From Hyphococcus sp. (GTDB taxonomy: Bacteria; Pseudomonadota; Alphaproteobacteria; Caulobacterales; Parvularculaceae): 64,000 nucleotides of DNA. The DNA is taken from NCBI GenBank assembly GCA_028289605.1, contig JANQON010000003.1:310001-374000 (forward strand). The letters are read 5' to 3'. The notes beneath the pieces are model-generated. The model was not told the origin of the DNA. It saw only the letters and a program-made list of their open reading frames with translations, and ran no database searches. Shown piece by piece: positions 22,203-32,121 of the stretch (within the stretch, counting starts at the first letter, position 1; every line of letters starts with the position of its first letter). The translations under genes were made by a program, and so were the position numbers.

Positions 22203-22231
22203 GGGCTGGGATCTGGTTTTACGAATTGAGG

Positions 22232-22264
22232 GCGGCGCGAGATTTTCGCGCCGCTTTTTTTTTT
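22232..22264 (+). terminator. Rho-independent terminator of the metalloprotease gene
   Basis: A perfect 9-bp stem (GCGGCGCGA / TCGCGCCGC) with a five-base loop, followed by ten T residues. Confidence 0.9.
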
Positions 22265-22274
22265 GCACTCCTCA

Positions 22275-22344
22275 TCCGCTCATCCCCGCGAAAGCGGGGA
22301 TCCAGAGGCATACGCGAACGCGGGTGGGTGAATATGGATTCCCG
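22275..22344. repeat. Family D palindromic repeat fused to a gene fragment
   Basis: CCGCTCATCCCCGCGAAAGC at the left and ATGGATTCCCGCT at the right. The right end stops short and runs straight into the truncated wHTH frame, so one has been inserted into or recombined with the other. Confidence 0.7.
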
Positions 22345-22518
22345 CTATTATTGAACCGTTTGATAATGGACGCCCTGCGCACCGCCGATGGCCCTATGCG
22401 CACACGGGATTTAGTGAGCGCAATTATGATAACGCTGGGCCATGAAGAAACAGCGCGAACTGCGCTGGTGCCGCGCGTGAAGGGAAACCCTTATTATCTT
22501 CAGCGAACGAAGGCTTAG
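22324..22518 (+). pseudogene. Truncated winged-helix protein fragment
   Basis: A 64-codon frame whose useful part starts near LIMDALRTADGPMRTRDLVSA and ends in PYYLQRTKA. This looks like the DNA-binding half of a wHTH protein of the kind found in mobile regions. The apparent GTG start lies inside a family D repeat and has no ribosome site, and the frame ends abruptly. The natural reading is a gene fragment with its 5' end lost to the repeat. GC content is lower than in the main chromosome, in line with the adjacent islet. Confidence 0.5.
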
Positions 22519-22566
22519 GTGGAGAAGATCGGATCAGGCCGTGAGCTTGGTGGGCATTAGACTTAG

Positions 22567-23040
22567 CTACTGCATTGCCTCAAAATACGCAGCCGCCGCA
22601 TCAAGCACGTCATCGTATAAGTTCCACCCCTTCGGGATCGGAGCCTTTTCCAATAATTCCTCGCCTAACGGGGTGAGTTCGAACTCGTTTTCCAAATCGC
22701 CAGTCATATCACCCTCCTCTAGCGCGTCACGAACAACGGCGCGGGCATATCTAGGGTTAAAGCTATCCGGCAAGTGCCTCTGTACAGACCTCAAGTCATC
22801 AGCGCCCATTTTAACCAGTTGAAAAACAAGGCGTTTTTTTGCGCCCATACGCATTCGGCGCTCTCCGTCGCCAGAGCGCTTTTCGCTAGCCTCGACGGAT
22901 TTTAGGGCGGACTCTAAAGCCTCGATCTTGGCCTTTTGAACGTCAATGCTGCGATCTAGAAGGTCTCGATCAACCTTAAGGCCGTTAAGCTCCTGTTTGG
23001 CTGATTCTATAAGCTTCAACAGGCCTTTGGTGCTGCTCAT
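22567..23040 (-). CDS. Coiled-coil protein with C-terminal winged-helix-like domain
   Basis: 157 aa. Residues 1-60 are heptad-like and highly charged (LLKLIESAKQELNGL, then IDVQKAKIEALESALKSVE), typical of a dimerising coiled coil. Residues about 65-157 look like a wHTH of the type found in small phage or island proteins (RYARAVVRDALEEGDMTG, then LTPLGEELLEKA). No catalytic residues are visible. Base composition is clearly less GC-rich than the neighbours, which suggests acquired DNA. Its start lies 156 bases from the unusual tRNA on the opposite strand. It may be a regulator; function unknown. Confidence 0.7.
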   Translation of the reverse strand: MSSTKGLLKLIESAKQELNGLKVDRDLLDRSIDVQKAKIEALESALKSVEASEKRSGDGERRMRMGAKKRLVFQLVKMGADDLRSVQRHLPDSFNPRYARAVVRDALEEGDMTGDLENEFELTPLGEELLEKAPIPKGWNLYDDVLDAAAAYFEAMQ

Positions 23041-23158
23041 GGCGGAACCCTATAAATTGTCTATGCCAGAACGTATAGGTAAAACCTTACAGAATCAATC
23101 TTACCGCATCGCCGGCCCCGGTTTGTTCCTGCGCGATTCTGTAATAGAGCGCCGCCTA

Positions 23159-23187
23159 TTGACGCATGACGCGTCTTGGGCCATTAT
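23159..23187 (+). promoter_or_regulatory. Sigma70-type promoter of the tRNA-like gene
   Basis: TTGACG at 23159-23164 and CATTAT at 23182-23187 are separated by 17 bases. The expected start, seven to eight bases later, falls on the first base of the tRNA (23196), so transcription would begin at or next to the mature 5' end. Confidence 0.65.
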
Positions 23188-23195
23188 GCGGGCAA

Positions 23196-23282
23196 GATGA
23201 GGTGCCCGAGTAGTCGAAGGGGCCAGTATTGCAAACTGGTGGGTTCATAGCCCCGTCGCAGGTGCAAATCCTGTCCTCATCT
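23196..23282 (+). tRNA. Unusual class II (serine-like) tRNA with anticodon UGC
   Basis: 87 bases fold by eye into a cloverleaf. The acceptor stem is 7 bp (GATGAGG / CCTCATC), the D arm CCC...GGG, and the anticodon arm CCAGT/ACTGG with loop ATTGCAA gives anticodon TGC at 23230-23232. A long variable arm has a GGG/CCC stem, and the T arm is GCAGG/CCTGT with loop TGCAAAT. The D-arm text (TGCCCGAGTAGTCGAAGGGG) is that of tRNA-Ser, but UGC reads the alanine codon GCA. Two conserved positions are changed: G18 is A (23212) and T55 is G (23264). The discriminator base is T and CCA is not encoded (CCG follows). A promoter sits directly in front. It is either a specialised or a decaying tRNA. Confidence 0.75.
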
Positions 23283-23345
23283 CCGATCTTTACCTTGCGT
23301 TAATCAGGCCGGCGGAATATTCTTTAATTGGCTTGCGTTGCTATG

Positions 23346-23441
23346 ACGCTCCTTTTTGGGGTGAGCGTTGGCCAAGCCGATTTAGTCGGCTGGAGATGAG
23401 GCAAAGATTTAAGGCCCAGCAGAAATGCTGGGTCTTTTGTT
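23346..23441 (+). ncRNA. Tandem hairpins ending in a terminator, possible tRNA trailer or small RNA
   Basis: Three successive hairpins: ACGCTC/GAGCGT (23346-23368), AGCCGA/TCGGCT (23375-23391) and CCCAGCA/TGCTGGG followed by TCTTTTGTT (23415-23441). The last is a Rho-independent terminator. GGAGATGAGG at 23392-23401 is the exact reverse complement of the tRNA 3' acceptor strand plus three bases (23275-23284), so it could pair with it. The simplest reading is a structured trailer of the tRNA transcript; an independent small RNA is the alternative. I see no promoter of its own. Confidence 0.45.
23413..23441 (+). terminator. Rho-independent terminator downstream of the tRNA-like gene
   Basis: A 7-bp stem CCCAGCA / TGCTGGG with a GAAA tetraloop and a T-rich tail. 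Confidence 0.8.
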
Positions 23442-23445
23442 GTGC

Positions 23446-23761
23446 GCTTCGTTGCCAATATCCGGTTAAGTCAACGCTCAGCGTGGTTGCAGGCGCATTG
23501 CCTTCAACGCGATTCACTTGGCAGCCATTTGCACGGCGGCGGTGATCTTCACGCCATGAGGCCTCTTGCGCATAGCGGAGAAGATACTGACCGCTAATCC
23601 AGTGGTGACAGCCTTGCTCGGCGCGCCGCAGGCGAGAGAAGAATAACTTAGCTTGGTTTGTGCATGCGAAATCATATGGGAAGCCGACTTCGTCATTGAC
23701 GCGGCGAATCTCAAAACGGGCGTGCAGAATGGTTTCTGAGCGCCCACAAAAGCTATGCTCA
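23446..23761 (-). pseudogene. C-terminal remnant of an IS1595-family (ISXO2-like) transposase
   Basis: The minus-strand frame reads ACTNQAKLFFSRLRRAEQGC, then HHWISGQYLLRYAQEASWRE, then DHRRRANGCQVNRV and GYWQR. This closely follows the C-terminal part of IS1595 transposases, including the final DDE-domain Asn/Glu region. The N-terminal zinc-binding and catalytic Asp parts are absent: the frame is cut at the palindrome at 23762. It is therefore inactive. The upstream frame stays open by chance through palindromic DNA. It marks this islet as a landing site for mobile DNA. Confidence 0.75.
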
Positions 23762-23799
23762 TTAAGGGCTGTAAGCAGAACTCTGCTTACAGCCCTTAA
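23762..23799. repeat. Near-perfect 38-base palindrome
   Basis: Two 18-bp arms (TTAAGGGCTGTAAGCAGA and its reverse complement) flank a two-base centre. It sits exactly where the transposase remnant is cut, so it may be two insertion-sequence ends placed head to head. Confidence 0.85.
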
Positions 23800-23809
23800 C
23801 CAGCATGTT

Positions 23810-23889
23810 TTCCGCACGCTCATCAGGGTCAAGGGGCTAGCCCGCTTCGCGGCGGCGAAGCCGCCCTTGACCCTGATGAGCGTGCGGAA
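23810..23889. repeat. Long hairpin with perfect 26-bp arms
   Basis: Arms at 23810-23835 (TTCCGCACGCTCATCAGGGT then CAAGGG) and 23864-23889 are exact reverse complements. The 28-base centre holds a further small hairpin (TTCGC / GCGAA). It ends 47 bases before the next gene. It is not a copy of families A to F, although GCTCATC is shared. Confidence 0.88.
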
Positions 23890-23936
23890 TACGCGGGGCC
23901 TCGCGCTTCTCCCCAACACAGCGTAAGACTTCTCTC

Positions 23937-24889: not shown

Positions 24890-25330
24890 ATGACACAGAC
24901 CCATGCGCCATCCGAAGCCCTGGCAAAAGAACCGTACACGAATGAACGTGAGTGGGGCGCCCTCTGCGCCGACATCCGCGCGCTTGCGGCGCGACGGGCC
25001 GCCCGCATGCTCAGCGACGCCGGCGGCGACGACGTGGCCCATGACCGCGACGCCCGCGCGCTGCGCATGCTGATGGCGTCGGCGGAAATCGCCGCGCGCA
25101 TGCAGCGGCAAGATGAAAAGGAACAGCGCCTGAATGACGAACAGCGAGGCCCCCAGCTCCACACCGACGCAGAACTCGAAATCCTGTTCCAGCGGGCCCG
25201 CGCCCGCGTCGACCGCCTCAGAAGCGGGCCCGGACTACACGGAGCGGGAGCTGACGCTGATTCTCGAAAAGATGATGGAGGAAGCGGCCGCGACGCAGAC
25301 CGAACAGATCTGGGGGATGCATGCTCTTAA
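24890..25330 (+). CDS. GTA gp1-like protein, putative small terminase
   Basis: 146 aa from the ATG at 24890 (ATGs at 24878 and 24881 are alternatives; no ribosome site decides). It is helical and highly charged (EREWGALCADIRALAARRAA, then EIAARMQRQDEKEQRLND). Position before the large terminase matches Rhodobacter GTA gp1, which acts as the small terminase and recognises DNA for packaging. The last 35 codons (from about 25225) look non-native, being Gly/Asp-rich text. The terminase frame looks native over the same bases, so gp1 may end earlier in evolution or overlap deeply with gp2. Confidence 0.65.
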   Translation: MTQTHAPSEALAKEPYTNEREWGALCADIRALAARRAARMLSDAGGDDVAHDRDARALRMLMASAEIAARMQRQDEKEQRLNDEQRGPQLHTDAELEILFQRARARVDRLRSGPGLHGAGADADSRKDDGGSGRDADRTDLGDACS

Positions 25331-26537
25331 GCATCAACAACCGCCCGCGGGCGACTGGACGACCTGGCTCATTCTCGGCGGGCGCGGCTGCGGCAAGACC
25401 CGCGCCGGCGCGGAATGGATCCGCGGTCTCGTCAACAAGAGCGCCAATGACGATTGCAATCCGGCCGGCGCCGTCGCGCTGGTCGCTGAAACATACGCCG
25501 ATGCGAGGGAAGTCATGATCGAGGGTCCCTCCGGCATCATCGCCTGCGCCGCCGCGCTGTCGCGGCCCGTTTACGAGGCCTCCCGCCGCCGCCTGGTCTG
25601 GCCCAACGGCGCAGTCGCCCATTGTTTTTCTGCGGAGGATCCGGACGGGATTCGCGGCTATCAGTTTACGGCCGCCTGGAGCGATGAGCTCGTCAAATGG
25701 CGGTATGCGGAGGAAACCTGGTCGAACCTGCAGCTCGCCCTGCGCCTCGGCGCCCGCCCGCGCCAGATCGCGACAACGACGCCGCGCCCGATCGGGCTGA
25801 TCAAGCGCCTGCTCGAAGCGCCGACAACATCGGTCACCCGCGCCACCAGCTACGACAACCGCGCCAACTTGTCCGAAGCGTTCTTTACCGAGATCGCGGC
25901 GATGTACGAAGGCACCGCCCTTGGCCGCCAGGAATTGCTCGGCGAGCTCATCGACGACACGCCGGGCGCCTTGTGGAACTGGGCGATGATCGAAGCGGCG
26001 CGGATTTCGCACTATCCGCCCCTGTCGCGCATCGTCGTCGCCGTCGATCCCCCGGCGACGGCGGGCGAGGGCGCGGACGCTTGCGGCATCATCGTAGCTG
26101 GCGTCGACGCCTCCGGCGAAGCGTGCGAGCGCACCGCCTATGTGCTCGCCGACCGGACGGCGAAGCGGTTGTCGCCGCGGCAATGGGCCGAGCGCGCCGT
26201 CGCCGCGTTTCACGAATTCGAAGCCGACCGCATCGTCGTTGAACTGAACCAGGGCGGCGACATGGTCAAAGCCGTCATCGCCCAGGTCGATGCGGGCGCG
26301 CCGGTCAAAGGCGTATACGCAACCCGCGGCAAAACCCTGCGCGCCGAACCCGTCGCCGCCCTCTATGAGCGCACGCGCGTGCGCCATGTGGGCGCCTTTC
26401 CCGATCTCGAAGAGGAAATGACCCGGTATTGCGGCGCCGGACCATCGCCGGATCGCCTCGACGCCCTCGTCTGGGCGCTGACCGATTTGATGATCCGACC
26501 GCGGGCCCCGCGCCCGGGCGTGACGCGGGTGGATTAG
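25134..26537 (+). CDS. GTA large terminase (gp2), ATPase and nuclease
   Basis: 467 aa from the longest start; ATGs at 25272 and 25317 are also possible, and the first 30 residues look non-native. Walker A is GGRGCGKTRAGAEW, preceded by DWTTWLIL as in other GTA terminases. Walker B-like hydrophobic residues (GYQFTAAWSDEL) and the RNase H-like nuclease part (IVVAVDPPAT with its Asp, then VVELNQGGDM) follow. It pumps DNA into GTA heads; in GTAs this packaging is nearly random host DNA. The gene overlaps gp1 and is followed by family A and B repeats. Confidence 0.93.
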   Translation: MTNSEAPSSTPTQNSKSCSSGPAPASTASEAGPDYTERELTLILEKMMEEAAATQTEQIWGMHALKHQQPPAGDWTTWLILGGRGCGKTRAGAEWIRGLVNKSANDDCNPAGAVALVAETYADAREVMIEGPSGIIACAAALSRPVYEASRRRLVWPNGAVAHCFSAEDPDGIRGYQFTAAWSDELVKWRYAEETWSNLQLALRLGARPRQIATTTPRPIGLIKRLLEAPTTSVTRATSYDNRANLSEAFFTEIAAMYEGTALGRQELLGELIDDTPGALWNWAMIEAARISHYPPLSRIVVAVDPPATAGEGADACGIIVAGVDASGEACERTAYVLADRTAKRLSPRQWAERAVAAFHEFEADRIVVELNQGGDMVKAVIAQVDAGAPVKGVYATRGKTLRAEPVAALYERTRVRHVGAFPDLEEEMTRYCGAGPSPDRLDALVWALTDLMIRPRAPRPGVTRVD

Positions 26538-26585
26538 GGAGGTGCGTGTGCTGATGTTTTGTAGTTCCGCTCAACTTTCTTTCTG

Positions 26586-26660
26586 CCCGCTCATCCCGGC
26601 CCGACCGCGAAGCGGTCAAACTGTAATTCGCGCGCGAAAGCCGGGATCTCGGGCGGCACA
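26586..26660. repeat. Family A repeat, partial copy 7 (between gp2 and gp3)
   Basis: CCCGCTCATCCCGGC, the inner module (gaccgcgaagcggtc) in the left arm, then GAAAGCCGGGATCTCGGGCGG. The right outer arm is lost. Confidence 0.78.
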
Positions 26661-26690
26661 GCAATTTACGCATCGCAAAGAAACAAACGC

Positions 26691-26772
26691 TGTCGTCCTC
26701 GGACTTGTTCCGAGGACCTTTGGCAACGAGTCCAGCGGCCTAAGATCGTCGGAACAAGTCCGACGATGACAA
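26691..26772. repeat. Family B palindromic repeat, copy 4 (between gp2 and gp3)
   Basis: TGTCGTCCTCGGACTTGTTC, CGAGGACC and the right hairpin with GTCGGAACAAGTCCGAC; 37 bases before the portal gene. Confidence 0.88.
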
Positions 26773-26809
26773 TCACTTCGTTCTACGATTGCGAGAAGAG
26801 TAAAAATTC

Positions 26810-27979
26810 ATGCCCTTAATCCCCAATTTCTTTCGCCGGGCCCCCGCTGCGAAGGCCTCCGCCGCCAAGGCGTTGATCGCGCTCCATCGCCTCGGCCAGC
26901 CGGCCTGGACGCCGCGGGATTACGCCGCGCTGGCCCGGGCCGGTTTTGAGAAAAACGTCATCGCCTATCGCTGCGTGCGGCTGGTTGCGGAGACGGCGGC
27001 GTCGGCGCCGCTGGAGATTGTCGAAGGGGGCGCGGCGATGGCCGATCATCCTCTGGCTGCGCTCATGGATACGCCGAACCCGGAACAATCGGGCGCGGCG
27101 CTGCTGGAAGACTTTTACGGGTTCCTGCAGACGGCGGGCAACGCCTATCTCGAAGCCGCGACGATCGACGCCGCCCCGCGGGAGCTTTACGTATTGCGCC
27201 CGGACCGGGTGAAAGCGCGCCTCGGCGCCAATGGCTGGCCCGTGGCGTGGGACTATCGCGTTGGCGCCCGCAGCGTGACGTTCAAAAAGCCGGAAGAGGG
27301 GTTCTCCCCGATCCTGCATCTCAAGCTTTTTCATCCGACCAACGATCATTACGGGCTGTCGCCGCTGGAAGCCGCCGCCGCATCGGTCGATCTGCACAAC
27401 GCGGCGGCGGCGTGGAACAAGGCGCTGCTCGACAATGCGGCGCGGCCTTCCGGCGCGCTTGTCTATCAGGGTCCGGAAGGGGCGGAGAACCTCACCGCGG
27501 AACAATTCGAGCGGTTGAAGTCGGAGCTGGAAGACGCTTATCAGGGCGCGGCCCATGCCGGGCGCCCGCTGGTGCTCGACGGCGGGCTCGAATGGCGGTC
27601 CATGTCGCTGACCCCGGCGGATATGGACTTCATCGAAGCTAAGAACGCCGCCGCCCGTGAAATCGCGCTCGCTTTCGGCGTGCCGCCCATGCTGCTCGGT
27701 ATACCAGGCGATAATACGTATTCGAATTATCGCGAGGCCAATCTCGCCTTCTGGAAACAGACGGTCCTGCCGCTGGTGAAAAAAACCGCCGCCGCGATCA
27801 CCGCCTGGATGCGCCCCGTTTTCCCGCGCGTGTCGGTCGTCTGCGAGACGGCGCGCATCGAAGCGCTGTCGGCGGAACGCGACGCCCTGTGGTCGCGGGT
27901 CTGCCGCGCCGACTTTTTAAGCGACGACGAAAAACGCAGCGCCCTCGGCCTCGCGTCCCGGGACGGGGAGGAGGCTTAG
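26810..27979 (+). CDS. GTA portal protein (gp3), HK97 family
   Basis: 389 aa, the usual length for GTA portals. Family text runs throughout: AYRCVRLVAETAASAPLEI, LLEDFYGFLQTAGNAYLE, ELYVLRPDRV, HLKLFHPTNDHYGLSPLEAA and FGVPPMLLGIPGDNTYSNYR. Twelve copies form the ring through which DNA enters the head and to which the connector proteins dock. GAGAAGAG precedes the ATG. It is followed without gap by the small membrane protein at 27980, so both are co-translated. Repeats separate it from gp2. Confidence 0.95.
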   Translation: MPLIPNFFRRAPAAKASAAKALIALHRLGQPAWTPRDYAALARAGFEKNVIAYRCVRLVAETAASAPLEIVEGGAAMADHPLAALMDTPNPEQSGAALLEDFYGFLQTAGNAYLEAATIDAAPRELYVLRPDRVKARLGANGWPVAWDYRVGARSVTFKKPEEGFSPILHLKLFHPTNDHYGLSPLEAAAASVDLHNAAAAWNKALLDNAARPSGALVYQGPEGAENLTAEQFERLKSELEDAYQGAAHAGRPLVLDGGLEWRSMSLTPADMDFIEAKNAAAREIALAFGVPPMLLGIPGDNTYSNYREANLAFWKQTVLPLVKKTAAAITAWMRPVFPRVSVVCETARIEALSAERDALWSRVCRADFLSDDEKRSALGLASRDGEEA

Positions 27980-28252
27980 ATGCACGCTGTCTCAGCCCCG
28001 CGCCCGCCGGAACGGCCCCAGGAACAGCGCATCACCGTCGCGCTTGGCTCCGCGCTCCTCGTTCAAACGGCGCTTGCGCTGATCTGGACCGGCGCCGCGT
28101 CGGAGCGGATCTCTCAGCTGGAGCGGCGCGCGGAAGCCAACGCCGTCGTCATCGAACGCACCGCGCGGCTGGAAGAACAGGTGGCTTTCATGACCAAGAC
28201 GCTGATGCGCATTGAGGACAAAATTGATCGCCAGGCGGAGGAAGGGGAGTGA
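27980..28252 (+). CDS. GTA gp3.5-like small membrane/coiled-coil protein
   Basis: 90 aa starting directly after the portal stop codon. One hydrophobic helix (ITVALGSALLVQTALALIW) precedes a charged heptad stretch (ERISQLERRAEANAVVIERT then ARLEEQVAFM). The position between portal and protease is that of gp3.5 in Rhodobacter-type GTAs, whose role is unclear. A membrane anchor plus coiled coil could help with assembly or release at the membrane (inference). Confidence 0.75.
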   Translation: MHAVSAPRPPERPQEQRITVALGSALLVQTALALIWTGAASERISQLERRAEANAVVIERTARLEEQVAFMTKTLMRIEDKIDRQAEEGE

Positions 28253-28271
28253 TGGTTGGCTTTTGTTATTT

Positions 28272-28345
28272 CCGCTCATCCCCGCGAAAGCGGGGACCCA
28301 GCAAAGCAAACCAAATGGATCCCCGCTTTCGCGGGGATGAGCGGG
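28272..28345. repeat. Family D palindromic repeat (between gp3.5 and gp4)
   Basis: CCGCTCATCCCCGCGAAAGC at the left and GCTTTCGCGGGGATGAGCGG at the right; complete. Confidence 0.9.
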
Positions 28346-28373
28346 TGTTGAATCATGGAGGGAAAAATCACCC

Positions 28374-28880
28374 ATGACCCACCCCCCGCTCACCGCCGAA
28401 ATCGAAGGGTTCGCCGCCCGTTACGAAGAGCCCGACCGGGCCGGCGACGTTATCGCCCGCGGCGCCTTTCGCAAGACGCTTAAGAAAAGAACCGCGCCGG
28501 TGCGCATGCTCTATCAGCATGGCGTTGATGCGCCGATCGGCAAGTGGACCGATTTTCGCGACACTGCCGCCGGGCTTATTGCAACCGGCGAGTTAATCTT
28601 GTCGTCGCCGCGGGCCCGGGAAATCTATGCGCTGATAGAGGGCGGCGCTCTCGACGGATTGTCGATCGGCTACGAAACCGTGCGCGCGCGAAAAGGCCGC
28701 GCCGGCCGGCGCATCCTTGAAGCCGAATTGTGGGAGGTCTCGATTGTCACCTTCCCCATGGCGCCGAGGGCGCGCGTTACGCGCATCGGTTCGCCCTCGT
28801 CACCCCAAAAGCTTTCGCCGCCGGGCGCGCATCAGTTCGCGGGCGCCTTGCGGAACGCAGCATCCATTCTTTCAGCCTAA
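28374..28880 (+). CDS. GTA prohead protease (gp4), HK97 family
   Basis: 168 aa. The serine protease fold of phage prohead proteases is shown by IEGFAARYEEPDRAGDVIARG, PVRMLYQHGVDAPIGKW (catalytic His), GALDGLSIGYETV (catalytic Ser in LSIG) and LWEVSIVTFPMAP. It cuts the N-terminal scaffold part of the capsid protein during head maturation and then itself. GGAGGGAAA lies upstream. It is followed 15 bases later by the capsid gene. Confidence 0.95.
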   Translation: MTHPPLTAEIEGFAARYEEPDRAGDVIARGAFRKTLKKRTAPVRMLYQHGVDAPIGKWTDFRDTAAGLIATGELILSSPRAREIYALIEGGALDGLSIGYETVRARKGRAGRRILEAELWEVSIVTFPMAPRARVTRIGSPSSPQKLSPPGAHQFAGALRNAASILSA

Positions 28881-28895
28881 GGAGTAAAAAAAGTT

Positions 28896-30137
28896 ATGCG
28901 TATCGAAACAAAAGCAGGCGAGGCGAGCGATGTTCGCAGCGCCATGCACGAATTCTTAAGCGTCTTTGAACAATTCAAGGACGCTAACGATCAGCGCCTG
29001 GCGGCGCTGGAGCAAAAACGCGGCGACGATGTTGTTCTTGGCGAACAGATCGAGCGTCTCAACCGGTCGCTTGACGAACAGCAAGCGAAAGTCGACGCCC
29101 TGGCCTTGAAATCGGCCCGCCCGCAATTGGGGCGAGATGCGTCCGACCGCCGCGACGAACGCCCGGATGAACGCAAAGCCGCGTTCCAGCGCTACATGCG
29201 CGCCGGCGACGGCGCCGCCGCGGCGCTGTTGGAGGAAAAAGCAGCCAATGTGGGGACTGACGCGGAAGGCGGCTACCTCGCGCCGGAACAGACAGAGCGC
29301 ATTATCACCGCGGCGGTGAAAGACATTTCGCCCATTCGCCAGATTGCGTCGGTGCGGGAAATCGGCGCCAATATCTATCGCAAGCCCGTGTCCAACGGCG
29401 ACGCCGCCGTCGGCTGGGTCGGCGAAACCGGCGCGCGGGCCGAGACGACGGCGCCCACCATCACCGCGATCGATTTCCCGACTATGGAGCTATACGCCAT
29501 GCCGGCGGCGAGCCAGACGCTGCTCGATGATGCGGTCGTTGACGTCGAACAGTGGCTCGCGGACGAAGTGCAGACCGAATTCGCCGTTCAGGAGTCCGCC
29601 GCTTTCGTCAATGGCGACGGCGTCAACCAACCCAAAGGGTTTCTCGACTACACGATCGCGGAGGAATCGGTGCGCGCCGCCGGCGAGGTCGGCTATGTCG
29701 CTACCGGCGCCGCCGGCGCATTCCCCGCGTCCGATCCCTCCGACGTGTTGCTCGATCTTATCTATACGCCGAAACAGGCCTATCGCGCGAATGGCCGGTT
29801 CGTGTTGAACCGCTCCGTCCTCGGACAGTTGCGCAAGTTTAAGGACGCCGACGGCAACTATCTCTGGCAGCCGCCGGGTGAAGCGGCGGCGCCGGCGCGC
29901 CTTCTCGGTTATCCGGTGAGCGAGGCCGAAGACATGCCCGATGTGGCGGCGGATGCGCACGCCATCGCCTTCGGCGACTTTCGCCGCTTTTACCTCGTCG
30001 TCGACCGGGTCGGCGTGCGCGTCCTGCGCGATCCCTATTCAGCCAAGCCCTTCGTCCTGTTCTACACGACAAAACGGGTCGGCGGCGGCGTTCAGGATTT
30101 TGACGCGGTGAAGTTGCTGAAGTTTTCGGCGTCGTAG
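28896..30137 (+). CDS. GTA major capsid protein (gp5), HK97 family
   Basis: 413 aa. Residues 1-100 are a charged coiled-coil scaffold (FEQFKDANDQRLAALEQKRG), to be removed by the gp4 protease. The mature HK97 fold then starts near AANVGTDAEGGYLAPEQTE, with GWVGETGARAETTAP, ELYAMPAASQTLLDD and the C-terminal FGDFRRFYLVVDRVGVRVLR. It forms the small GTA head, which holds only a few kb of DNA. TAAGGAGTAAAAAA gives a very strong ribosome site, in line with high copy number. Confidence 0.97.
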   Translation: MRIETKAGEASDVRSAMHEFLSVFEQFKDANDQRLAALEQKRGDDVVLGEQIERLNRSLDEQQAKVDALALKSARPQLGRDASDRRDERPDERKAAFQRYMRAGDGAAAALLEEKAANVGTDAEGGYLAPEQTERIITAAVKDISPIRQIASVREIGANIYRKPVSNGDAAVGWVGETGARAETTAPTITAIDFPTMELYAMPAASQTLLDDAVVDVEQWLADEVQTEFAVQESAAFVNGDGVNQPKGFLDYTIAEESVRAAGEVGYVATGAAGAFPASDPSDVLLDLIYTPKQAYRANGRFVLNRSVLGQLRKFKDADGNYLWQPPGEAAAPARLLGYPVSEAEDMPDVAADAHAIAFGDFRRFYLVVDRVGVRVLRDPYSAKPFVLFYTTKRVGGGVQDFDAVKLLKFSAS

Positions 30138-30150
30138 TTTGATCCAACCA

Positions 30151-30224
30151 CCGCTCATTCCCGCGAAAGCGGGAATCCATTTTCCACCTCAATATGGATC
30201 CCCGCTTTCGCGGGGATGAGCGGG
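30151..30224. repeat. Family D palindromic repeat (between gp5 and gp6)
   Basis: CCGCTCATTCCCGCGAAAGC at the left and GCTTTCGCGGGGATGAGCGG at the right. It follows the capsid stop codon by 13 bases. Confidence 0.9.
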
Positions 30225-30252
30225 AGATGACACGATTTACGAAGGACCACCC

Positions 30253-30798
30253 ATGCCCCTAACCCTGCTTTCCCCGCCGGCGGCGGAGCCGGTCGCGCTT
30301 CAGGACCTGAAAGATCACCTGCGCGTTGACGGCGACGCCGAGGACGGGGTCATCGCCGCGGCGCTGGCGAGCGCGGTGCGCGCCATCGAAGCGCGGGCCG
30401 GGCTCGCCATAATGACGCAAGTATGGCGCCTAACACTCGACGCGGCGCCGGCGGAGACGTTGATCTTGCCGATCGCGCCGGTGACAAGCCTCGATGCAGT
30501 GACCGTATCCGGCGCGGCGGTCTCACTTTCCGCATACGAATTTGCACCTGGCGCGCCCGCTAAGCTGCGCCCCGCAGCGCCCTGGCCGGCGCCGGCGAAT
30601 AGGATCGGCGACGTCGTCATCGACTTCACCGCCGGTTTCGCCAGCGCCGACGACATCCCCGCGTCGCTTACGCAGGCGGTGAAGATGCTCGCCGCGCATT
30701 TTTATGAGAACCGCGAAGGCGCGGTCGCGGCCCGGGTTTACTCCCTTCCCCGCGGCGTTGATGCGCTCATCGCCCCCTGGCGGGAGCTGCGGCTATGA
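30253..30798 (+). CDS. GTA head-tail adaptor (gp6)
   Basis: 181 aa. The start (LLSPPAAEPVALQDLKDHLR) followed by AIEARAGLAIMTQVWRLTLD is typical of the gp6/DNA-packaging adaptor family in GTAs and related phages, which binds under the portal ring. C-terminal MLAAHFYENREG matches the family end. Its stop overlaps the start of gp7 by ATGA, so gp6, gp7 and gp8 form a coupled unit. No signal sequence; structural protein. Confidence 0.9.
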   Translation: MPLTLLSPPAAEPVALQDLKDHLRVDGDAEDGVIAAALASAVRAIEARAGLAIMTQVWRLTLDAAPAETLILPIAPVTSLDAVTVSGAAVSLSAYEFAPGAPAKLRPAAPWPAPANRIGDVVIDFTAGFASADDIPASLTQAVKMLAAHFYENREGAVAARVYSLPRGVDALIAPWRELRL

Positions 30799-31112
30799 TC
30801 GGCGGCTTTCGCAACCGGATCGAGCTGCTCACTTTTTCCCGGACCGCCGACGATGCGGGCGGCGCCGGCATCGCCTGGCTGCCGGGGCCGGAGATCTGGG
30901 CCGACGTCAGCCGCCTGACATCGACCCGCGATGTGACCGGCGACCGCGAGCGCCGCCTCAAACGCATCGCCGCGCGTATTCGGGTGCGCAGCGACATCGT
31001 CCTCGGCCAGCAGATCCGCTTTGACGCGGAGCGCTACGAGGTCGTCAGTATCGAGAGCGACGACGGTCGCGCCCGCCGGTTCACCCTCATCTGCGAGGAG
31101 GTCAGCTCATGA
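30795..31112 (+). CDS. GTA head closure / stopper protein (gp7)
   Basis: 105 aa. GGFRNRIELLTFSRTADDAG at the N-terminus and ADVSRLTSTRDVTGDRERRL match the phage head-tail adaptor (SPP1 gp16-like) family. It seals the head after packaging. ATGA overlaps couple it to gp6 and gp8. Confidence 0.9.
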   Translation: MIGGFRNRIELLTFSRTADDAGGAGIAWLPGPEIWADVSRLTSTRDVTGDRERRLKRIAARIRVRSDIVLGQQIRFDAERYEVVSIESDDGRARRFTLICEEVSS

Positions 31113-31516
31113 GCGACGCATCTTTGTCCCTGCAACGCGCAATCTACGCCCGCCTGAAAGATGACGCAGGCCTTCAAGCCCTGATTGGCGATCCGGCCCG
31201 GCTTTATGACGACCCGCCGCTGGCGGCGACGTTCCCTTACGTCACGTTGGGGGAAGCGCGAACAACCCCGCTCGACGGCGTTGAAGGCGCGCTCGCCCAT
31301 GACGTCCGGCTTTATGCGTTTTCGGCCTATGCGGGGCGTTTTGAAGTGAAGAGCATGCTGGGCGCCCTCTACGACGCGCTGCACGACGCGGCGCTTGTCC
31401 TCAATGGTCATACGCTCATCAGCATACGGTTTGTTTTCGCCGACGCGCTGCGCCGGGTGGACCGCGAGACTTATCAAGGTGTCGCGCGCTTTCGCGCGGT
31501 GACGGAGGCGGCGTGA
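31109..31516 (+). CDS. GTA tail terminator (gp8), DUF3168
   Basis: 135 aa. Family text: LQRAIYARLKDDAGLQALIG, PPLAATFPYVTLGEARTTPL, HDVRLYAFSAYAGRFEVKSM and the conserved C-terminal YQGVARFRAVTE. It caps the tail tube where it meets the head. It overlaps gp7 by four bases and is separated from the tail tube gene by a family A repeat. Confidence 0.92.
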   Translation: MSDASLSLQRAIYARLKDDAGLQALIGDPARLYDDPPLAATFPYVTLGEARTTPLDGVEGALAHDVRLYAFSAYAGRFEVKSMLGALYDALHDAALVLNGHTLISIRFVFADALRRVDRETYQGVARFRAVTEAA

Positions 31517-31542
31517 TGAGAAAGTGGGTGAATTTAGTATTT

Positions 31543-31675
31543 CCCCGCTCATCCCGGCGAAAGCCGGGACCTCCCTCCACTTGCTGTGAGTTTGCCGCAC
31601 GAGATCCCGACCCGACCGCAAAGCGGTCAAACCATAATCTGCGCGCCTTCGCGCGCGGGCGTCGGGATGAGCGGG
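31543..31675. repeat. Family A palindromic repeat, copy 8 (between gp8 and gp9)
   Basis: CCCCGCTCATCCCGGCGAAAG at the left and the long right arm with inner module (gaccgcaaagcggtc, gcgcgccttcgcgcgc), ending GTCGGGATGAGCGGG. It closely resembles copy 1. Confidence 0.9.
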
Positions 31676-31698
31676 ACAGTTTTTAAGGAACCAATTGA

Positions 31699-32121
31699 AT
31701 GTCAGCACAAAGAGGCAAAGACCTCCTTCTCAAAATCGGCGATGGCGGCGCGCCGGAAACCTACGCCGTTGTCGGCGGGCTGAAGACGCGAACCCTGTCG
31801 CTCAACGCCCGAACGGTCGACGTCACCCACGCCAATTCCGCCGGGGGGTGGCGCGAGCTTTTGTCCGGCGCCGGCGTCAGACAGGCGAGCGTCGCCGGCG
31901 CCGGCGTCTTCCTCAATGAAGCTGCGGCGGAGACGGTGCGGTCGGCGTTTTTCAACGGCGCCATCGTCAACTGGCGGATCGTGATCCCCGGCTTCGGCGA
32001 CATCACCGGGCCGTTCCAGATCGGCAATCTCGATTACGCCGGCGACTTCGACGCCGAGGCGACGATGTCGCTGGCGCTGGAGTCGGCGGGGGAACTCATC
32101 TTTGCGCCGGAGAGTGCGTGA
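31699..32121 (+). CDS. GTA major tail tube protein (gp9)
   Basis: 140 aa. The start (QRGKDLLLKIGDGGAPETYA) and LSLNARTVDVTHANSAGGWR, then FQIGNLDYAGDFDAEATMSL match the TP901-1-type major tail protein family used by GTAs. Hexameric rings stack to form the short tail tube. AAGGAA lies upstream. It is flanked by repeats on both sides (families A and E), so it is not translationally coupled to its neighbours. Confidence 0.94.
   Translation: MSAQRGKDLLLKIGDGGAPETYAVVGGLKTRTLSLNARTVDVTHANSAGGWRELLSGAGVRQASVAGAGVFLNEAAAETVRSAFFNGAIVNWRIVIPGFGDITGPFQIGNLDYAGDFDAEATMSLALESAGELIFAPESA

Follow-up and report, generated by a model that had tools for sequence, protein, structure and literature searches.

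A tRNA domain of the phage A18/G55 type followed by a complement of its own mature 3' end in a Hyphococcus genome: a candidate two-state RNA

Introduction

In T-box riboswitches, a UGGN sequence pairs with the NCCA end of a tRNA. The C4 RNAs of phages P1 and P7 and the CI RNA of phage P4 are antisense immunity RNAs of phages; C4 is not a full tRNA, and its targets differ. As to the elbow of tRNA itself, the contact between G18 and psi55 is, to our knowledge, taken as near universal. According to PMC4810234, the T-box is an RNA that captures the 3' end of a tRNA and switches its own fold, and PMC11143913 describes the phage-derived antisense RNA C4 as a regulatory RNA that is processed by RNase P. 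Allo-tRNAs are class II, serine-like tRNAs with mostly non-serine anticodons, and their 12-bp acceptor branch is built as 8/4 or 9/3 (Mukai et al. 2017, cited after the review PMC7609411).

Here, a locus of a Hyphococcus genome is described that has features in common with each of these RNAs. It lies in a stretch of 64,000 nt, the whole of which is called the window, and its features are collected in Table 1. The locus differs from a T-box in that the tRNA is encoded just upstream and the pairing would span the whole acceptor 3' strand. No T-box family was among the four Rfam matches with E values of up to 10 in positions 23000-23500. Allo-tRNA identity was ruled out by acceptor geometry: compared with the branches described in PMC7609411, the window tRNA has a 7/5 branch (7-bp acceptor stem and 5-bp T stem), and it differs further by A18/G55 and by the downstream segment complementary to its 3' end.

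Results

Table 1. Position, strand and basis of the features of the locus in the window.
Feature	Position	Strand	Basis
Lineage-specific insert, about 1.65 kb	22203..23936		Flanking-gene spacing in relatives; G+C about 53% vs about 63% around
157-aa ORF of no known family, beside the RNA	22567..23040	-	Weak PHROG matches
Promoter-like site TTGACG-17-CATTAT	23159..23187	+	Consensus match only; about chance frequency
Class II tRNA domain, anticodon UGC, A18, G55, U73	23196..23282	+	ARAGORN; Infernal 48.3 bits; all stems paired; homolog L010:1439-1529
Acceptor 3' strand CCTCATC + T73 + CCG (no encoded CCA); complementary to the segment downstream	23275..23285	+	Sequence
Hairpin adjoining the segment, 5-6 bp	23376..23390	+	5-bp hairpin of L010 adjoins its segment likewise
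Anti-3'-end segment TGGAGATGAGG, complementary to the 3' end of the mature tRNA with its CCA	23391..23401	+	Conserved as TGGAGACGTCG in L010
Intrinsic-terminator-like hairpin with T-rich tail	23411..23436	+	2 found in the region vs shuffle mean 1.0

An earlier note on this DNA, made from the sequence, had proposed a class II tRNA gene with a UGC anticodon, and the gene proved to be real. ARAGORN called a tRNA-Ala(tgc) at 23196-23284 on the plus strand, and the covariance-model check suggested in the note came out well above the RF00005 gathering score of 29, with 48.3 bits and an E value of 2.3e-9 in a 501-base Infernal search. The whole-genome search again gave 48.3 bits; the default gathering scan of the window did not list the tRNA, an omission for which its fast filters are the probable cause. 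In RF00005, the host genome's other ten class II tRNAs scored 52.0-62.8 bits, and its three weakest tRNA matches 29.7-34. In the ARAGORN drawing, the cloverleaf consists of an acceptor stem of 7 bp, a D stem of 3 bp, an anticodon stem of 5 bp and a T stem of 5 bp, with a long variable arm and without a single broken pair. The anticodon loop ATTGCAA yields UGC, the D loop has A18 with G19 retained, the T loop TGCAAAT has G55, and position 73 is U, followed by CCG, not CCA. The anatomy is as the note had given it, i.e., stems, variable arm, anticodon loop, A18, G55, T73 and the missing CCA. As to the promoter that the note had placed at the tRNA 5' end, the site is present, but at about chance frequency, with one promoter-like site in 22900-23600 against a shuffle mean of 0.6.

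The search for the same gene in relatives, also suggested in the note, revealed a homolog in G029, a genome of another genus of the same family. This tRNA (L010) is likewise class II with UGC, A18, G55, U73 and a long variable arm, and its CCA is encoded. In plain blastn against 60 relatives, only the own copy and short matches were obtained, the best of the latter (E 0.001, G029) lying in the L010 tRNA. Comparison of the two cloverleaves over 20 pairs showed nine altered on both sides, two on one side and none broken. Both-sided changes affected 3/7 pairs of the acceptor stem (a further one on one side), 2/3 of the D stem and 4/5 of the anticodon stem (the fifth on one side), and the five pairs of the T stem were all unaltered. 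Compensatory changes with 0/20 pairs broken argue for selection on the tRNA fold and against decay. The window tRNA is, judged from this one homolog, phage-related and kept by selection on its fold.

The 13 kb around L010 contain integrase, RecT, exonuclease, Cro/CI-type repressor and RusA-like genes and are thus called prophage-like. Two rounds of ten ORFs each covered 13 distinct ORFs, a part of those in the stretch, and none of these 13 was a structural phage gene. No prophage genes could be recognised next to the copy in the window.

The 27 other genomes of the genus had no copy by pattern and gave short matches only in blastn, and the surrounding 421 bases had one further match in 200 genomes of the order, a terminator-like hairpin in G566. 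Phages and plasmids gave short matches only, and those inspected lay in tRNA arms or at chance places; among them, no tRNA call was found around the H67 match in a Ciceribacter plasmid, and a Calothrix plasmid match was an ordinary tRNA-Ser inside an array of 19 tRNA calls. The UGC pattern matched 2/398 genomes of the order sample (the own genome and G029), and a serine-like D loop with G55 matched 1/398 (the own genome). The family sample gave 3/62 matches, the third of which (G670) was not tRNA-like by eye, and the class sample 3/385, the two besides the own genome being judged from the matched letters alone. On genome contigs, the class II UGC pattern matched 10 stretches, two of which (L098 and L101) were class II UGC tRNAs by ARAGORN; this count is a lower bound, since a pattern with a fixed D-loop length was unable to detect G029. 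The former (L098:5493-5589, from a Gammaproteobacteria MAG) has U73 and, by eye, integrase-, IS1595- and ArdC-like ORFs nearby, and the latter (L101:47-133, from a Verrucomicrobia MAG) has G73 and an ordinary serine body. Neither the first viral pattern (five stretches) nor the viral pattern of UGC with G55 (three stretches) returned a UGC tRNA, the former being judged for class II tRNAs.

Viral contigs were also scanned with a pattern that required G55 and left position 18 free. Among 43 stretches, 40 were tRNAs by ARAGORN and one (L140) by eye, and all 41 had A18; the other two stretches were not tRNA-like. The 40 called tRNAs comprised 33 closely similar tRNA-Tyr, three Cys, two Gln and two Ser, so that the cases are far from independent. 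In a set of 519 unique tRNAs, into which some loci had come through patterns demanding A18 and G55 in one tRNA each, the 413 tRNAs with T55 had G18 in 409 cases and A18 in none (four unparsed). With G55 (70 tRNAs), A18 was present in 62; the parser did not place the other eight securely, and in two of these, where it saw GG, an A18-G19 reading is also possible. The remainder had C55 (five) or an unparsed T loop (31). Since A18 never occurs among T55 tRNAs and occurs in 62/70 of the G55 tRNAs, A18 and G55 represent one coupled replacement, not damage. The two bases that the note had described as changed are therefore both there, but as one coupled state instead of separate alterations.

The window tRNA belongs to this A18/G55 phage type. 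With viral members such as L119, L137, L142 and others it shares A18 and G55, often the GAGTAGTC D loop and the TGCAAAT T loop; it differs from them in its 11/11 downstream complement, which occurred in none of those tested, and in that they are ordinary isotypes by ARAGORN. In the viral contig L119 (33-11869), 15 called tRNAs of various isotypes form an array; 13 of them read G55 and have an A18-type D loop, as would be expected if the phage kept its own elbow contact throughout. L228:5522-5604 and L220:2782-2872 are further viral A18/G55 tRNAs with U73; in the former, the variable arm is long and the loop differs by one base from that of tRNA-Tyr, just as the loop of the window tRNA is one base from that of tRNA-Cys. 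A search of the T-loop review PMC7912444 and of the elbow review PMC4810234 for the words "A18" and "G55" gave neither, and among the papers listed in searches of open literature, none was seen to deal with A18/G55 or with a tRNA that has a self-complement.

Downstream of the tRNA, a segment, an adjoining hairpin and a terminator-like hairpin were found that go beyond what the note had seen. The segment is complementary to the acceptor 3' strand, U73 and CCA at 11/11 positions in the window as well as in L010, where TGGAGACGTCG is an 11-nt perfect complement of that tRNA's mature 3' end. Three of the 11 pairs are altered on both sides between the two RNAs, and eight are identical. The L010 segment has an A, forming an A-U pair, where the tRNA's own 5' strand has a G-U wobble; it thus follows the 3' strand and is not a simple copy of the 5' strand. 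The window DNA reads CCG and so lacks the final A of CCA; the eleventh pair there needs the mature tRNA (or a G-U pair in the precursor).

Downstream sequence of 300 nt or more was available for 460 unique tRNAs, whose loci had been compiled by searching for tRNAs and not sampled at random. In this set, an 11/11 complement was found in two, window and L010; four reached 10/11 and the others 9 or less. In the upstream control, 0/464 tRNAs reached 11/11 and two reached 10. When the 200 nt downstream were shuffled 20000 times, 11 was reached by 0 shuffles for the window and by 1 for L010, and 10 by 19 and 33, respectively; the window counts are post hoc, since the segment was sought after inverted repeat I3 had been noticed, and L010 is the independent case. 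I3, formed by the tRNA 3' end and 23392-23410, was equalled by 0/1000 shuffles and contains the segment except for its first base. L098 and L101 have no 11/11 complement, L101 with just 46 nt downstream.

On its 5' side, the segment adjoins a hairpin of at least 5 bp in both RNAs; a hairpin end of this kind occurs at 815 of 63978 window positions. A GC-rich hairpin stands 3' of the segment in both RNAs, and the terminator-like call was obtained for that of the window only. In L010, neither a promoter-like site immediately ahead of the tRNA nor, on that strand, a terminator was called. The 3' modules stand at different distances from the tRNA, and the middles align poorly; in a MAFFT alignment of the whole RNAs, the tRNA domains were joined and the 3' modules were not.

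A stretch of 11 nt that is complementary to the CCA-bearing end of a tRNA resembles a primer-binding site. The tRNA and segment might accordingly serve as primer and binding site for a reverse transcriptase, and the span of the complement, which includes CCA, fits this. Yet none of the seven window ORFs or 13 distinct ORFs of the L010 region that were tested encodes a reverse transcriptase, and this function is regarded as very improbable.

The immediate surroundings of the tRNA are those of an insert. It is flanked by a DUF4953/DUF5117 gene on one side and a CxxCxxCC gene on the other (Pfam); these two are 1734 bp apart, compared to 76 and 70 bp in L063 and L065, i.e., in the two of the 23 relatives' loci that have the first gene within reach. 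The ORF beside the RNA had no Pfam or NCBIfam match, was restricted to the own genome among 28 genus and 289 class genomes, and showed a weak match in one viral contig (34% identity over 55 residues). An IS1595-type transposase fragment (23341-23919) and two strong palindromes (23755-23892) lie directly downstream of the RNA. Farther off, at 25134-32121, a terminase gene (Pfam) is followed by ORFs that are portal-, protease- and capsid-like by eye; these look like a gene transfer agent or a prophage head cluster.

In the host genome, 44 regions gave 46 tRNA calls, including four ordinary tRNA-Ser with G73 and CCA. The canonical tRNA-Ala(UGC) and tRNA-Ile(GAU) are missing among the 46. SSU rRNA was not found in the assembly; since the same search missed 5/14 control genomes, it can only be said that the assembly may lack an rRNA operon. 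Two adjacent irregular tRNAs, an Asp lacking CCA and another whose anticodon is unclear (G000:C1:5649-5794), and a truncated tRNA-Pro-like fragment (G000:C4:29233-29306) were also seen in the host genome.

The note had also considered a decaying copy. A horizontally acquired tRNA gene in decay among mobile-element scraps, with the downstream complement there by chance, would agree with an insert unseen in relatives and lower in G+C, with the transposase fragment and palindromes close by, with the missing CCA, with the lack of a pattern match in the 27 other genus genomes and with the further odd or truncated tRNAs of the host. However, all helices are intact, the homolog keeps every helix by compensatory change, A18 and G55 are coupled in many phage tRNAs, and the complement is 11/11 in both copies. 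Decay is therefore considered unlikely.

With regard to the amino acid, determinants were taken from PMC9976931. Of the seven given there for bacterial tRNA-Ser (G73, C72, G2-C71, R4-Y69, C11-G24, a large variable region and G30-C40), the window tRNA has five, and lacks G73 (here U) and G2-C71 (here A-U). It has U73 and U3-A70 in place of the A73 and G3-U70 of tRNA-Ala. From the U73 and GCA anticodon of tRNA-Cys, it has U73, but the anticodon is UGC on a perfect 5-bp stem.

A model built from eight tRNA-Ser, among them the host's own four, gave the window tRNA 65.7 bits, compared to 91-96 for these four, 71.9 for the own tRNA-Tyr (not in the model), 39.6-52.2 for Leu and 35.5-37.2 for Ala. A model of 11 phage tRNA-Cys gave it 59.2 bits; its score stayed below that of the Ser model for the window tRNA, did not surpass it for the G029 tRNA, and did so for L098. 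A second model, R2, which included the window tRNA, was left out of the results. Over the 28 genus genomes, extra Ser-type matches, among the matches listed, occurred in G001 and G016. The former is a tRNA array (G001:C170, L115) with 23 tRNA calls in 9.9 kb of a 33.9-kb contig, most without encoded CCA, and is probably a phage or other mobile element. The latter (G016:C27, L116) is a disturbed copy, with extra anticodon-arm bases, 1.5 kb from a tRNA-Ser(GCU), as an integrated element might leave.

The phage tRNA-Cys L142 has the D arm, the T-arm core and U73 in common with the window tRNA, and the viral tRNA-Cys L160 has the same acceptor 5' strand, GATGAGG. The label "serine-type" that the note had used is favoured by the higher Ser-model score, but U73, D arm and T arm match phage tRNA-Cys, and the label is not secure. 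Ser-, Cys- and Tyr-type origins all seem possible.

The tRNA could also be a functional one of phage type that reads GCA codons and inserts Ser, Cys or Ala, the complement merely aiding or limiting its maturation. This would account for the perfect cloverleaf and its 48.3 bits; A18/G55 tRNAs of ordinary isotypes occur in viral contigs, and L098 and L101 are class II UGC tRNAs as well. Against this stand the identity sets of PMC9976931, none of which is complete (Ser without G73 and G2-C71, Ala without A73 and G3-U70, Cys without GCA), and the cost that a mistranslating tRNA would probably impose. GCA decoding is rated as rather improbable, though less so than decay, and the note's suggestion that GCA is misread as Ser lost ground with the two missing determinants and a Ser-model score far below those of the own tRNA-Ser. 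None of the note's three proposals, of which the aminoacyl donor is the third, is thus well supported, and for the donor role the data spoke neither way.

Folding of both RNAs was more stable than that of shuffles, with z of -3.31 for 247 nt of the window and -4.89 for 317 nt of L010. In predictions made without proteins or modifications, the free fold of the window RNA was the cloverleaf (-96.9 kcal/mol), and forcing the 3'-end-captured state (-93.7 kcal/mol) cost 3.2 kcal/mol. For L010, the captured state was the minimum (-142.2 kcal/mol) and the cloverleaf had -134.1 kcal/mol.

Discussion

We give about an even chance to the reading that the locus encodes a phage-derived two-state regulatory RNA, made of a tRNA domain and a segment that captures its 3' end, and not an ordinary decoding tRNA for Ser or Ala. 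The structured RNA would be about 245 nt long. Its 5' part would be the tRNA domain, which is intact and of the A18/G55 type of phages, and its 3' part would end in the hairpin, the 11-nt segment complementary to its own mature 3' end and the terminator-like hairpin. Both parts would lie on one transcript, which could adopt a cloverleaf or a 3'-end-captured state. The segment might pair within the nascent transcript (in cis) or with the mature tRNA (in trans), and switching may control how the tRNA domain is transcribed, how it matures or how stable it is, as in a feedback or immunity-type RNA. The parts, their covariation in one homolog and the prophage-like setting of that homolog are observed and form the basis of this reading. 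Two RNAs with tRNA and segment are known, of which the window member lies in an insert with an IS1595 fragment.

The segment might instead act in trans as in antisense immunity or control, with a tRNA-shaped RNA, freed by RNase P, that pairs with phage transcripts wherever these carry copies of the segment. A Cro/CI-type repressor gene near the L010 tRNA and the action of RNase P on the phage antisense RNA C4 (PMC11143913) are in line with this, but no second target is known, a search of the window returned one exact copy of the segment and none further, and no same-strand phage gene was recognised directly after the window locus. Such an antisense function thus appears quite improbable, more so than decay.

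Returning to the two-state RNA, it is conceivable, with somewhat less than even confidence, that it represents a new kind of phage regulatory RNA, i.e., a full tRNA with a trap for its own mature 3' end beside a terminator, self-sensing or self-limiting, cis-encoded and T-box-like, and built on the A18/G55 type.

The A18/G55 replacement means that the elbow contact has an alternative in phages, and its effect on the handling of phage tRNAs by host enzymes or defence nucleases becomes testable. If the pairing with the downstream segment is used, the tRNA gene would regulate itself through its own 3' end, a mode of which we know no other case.
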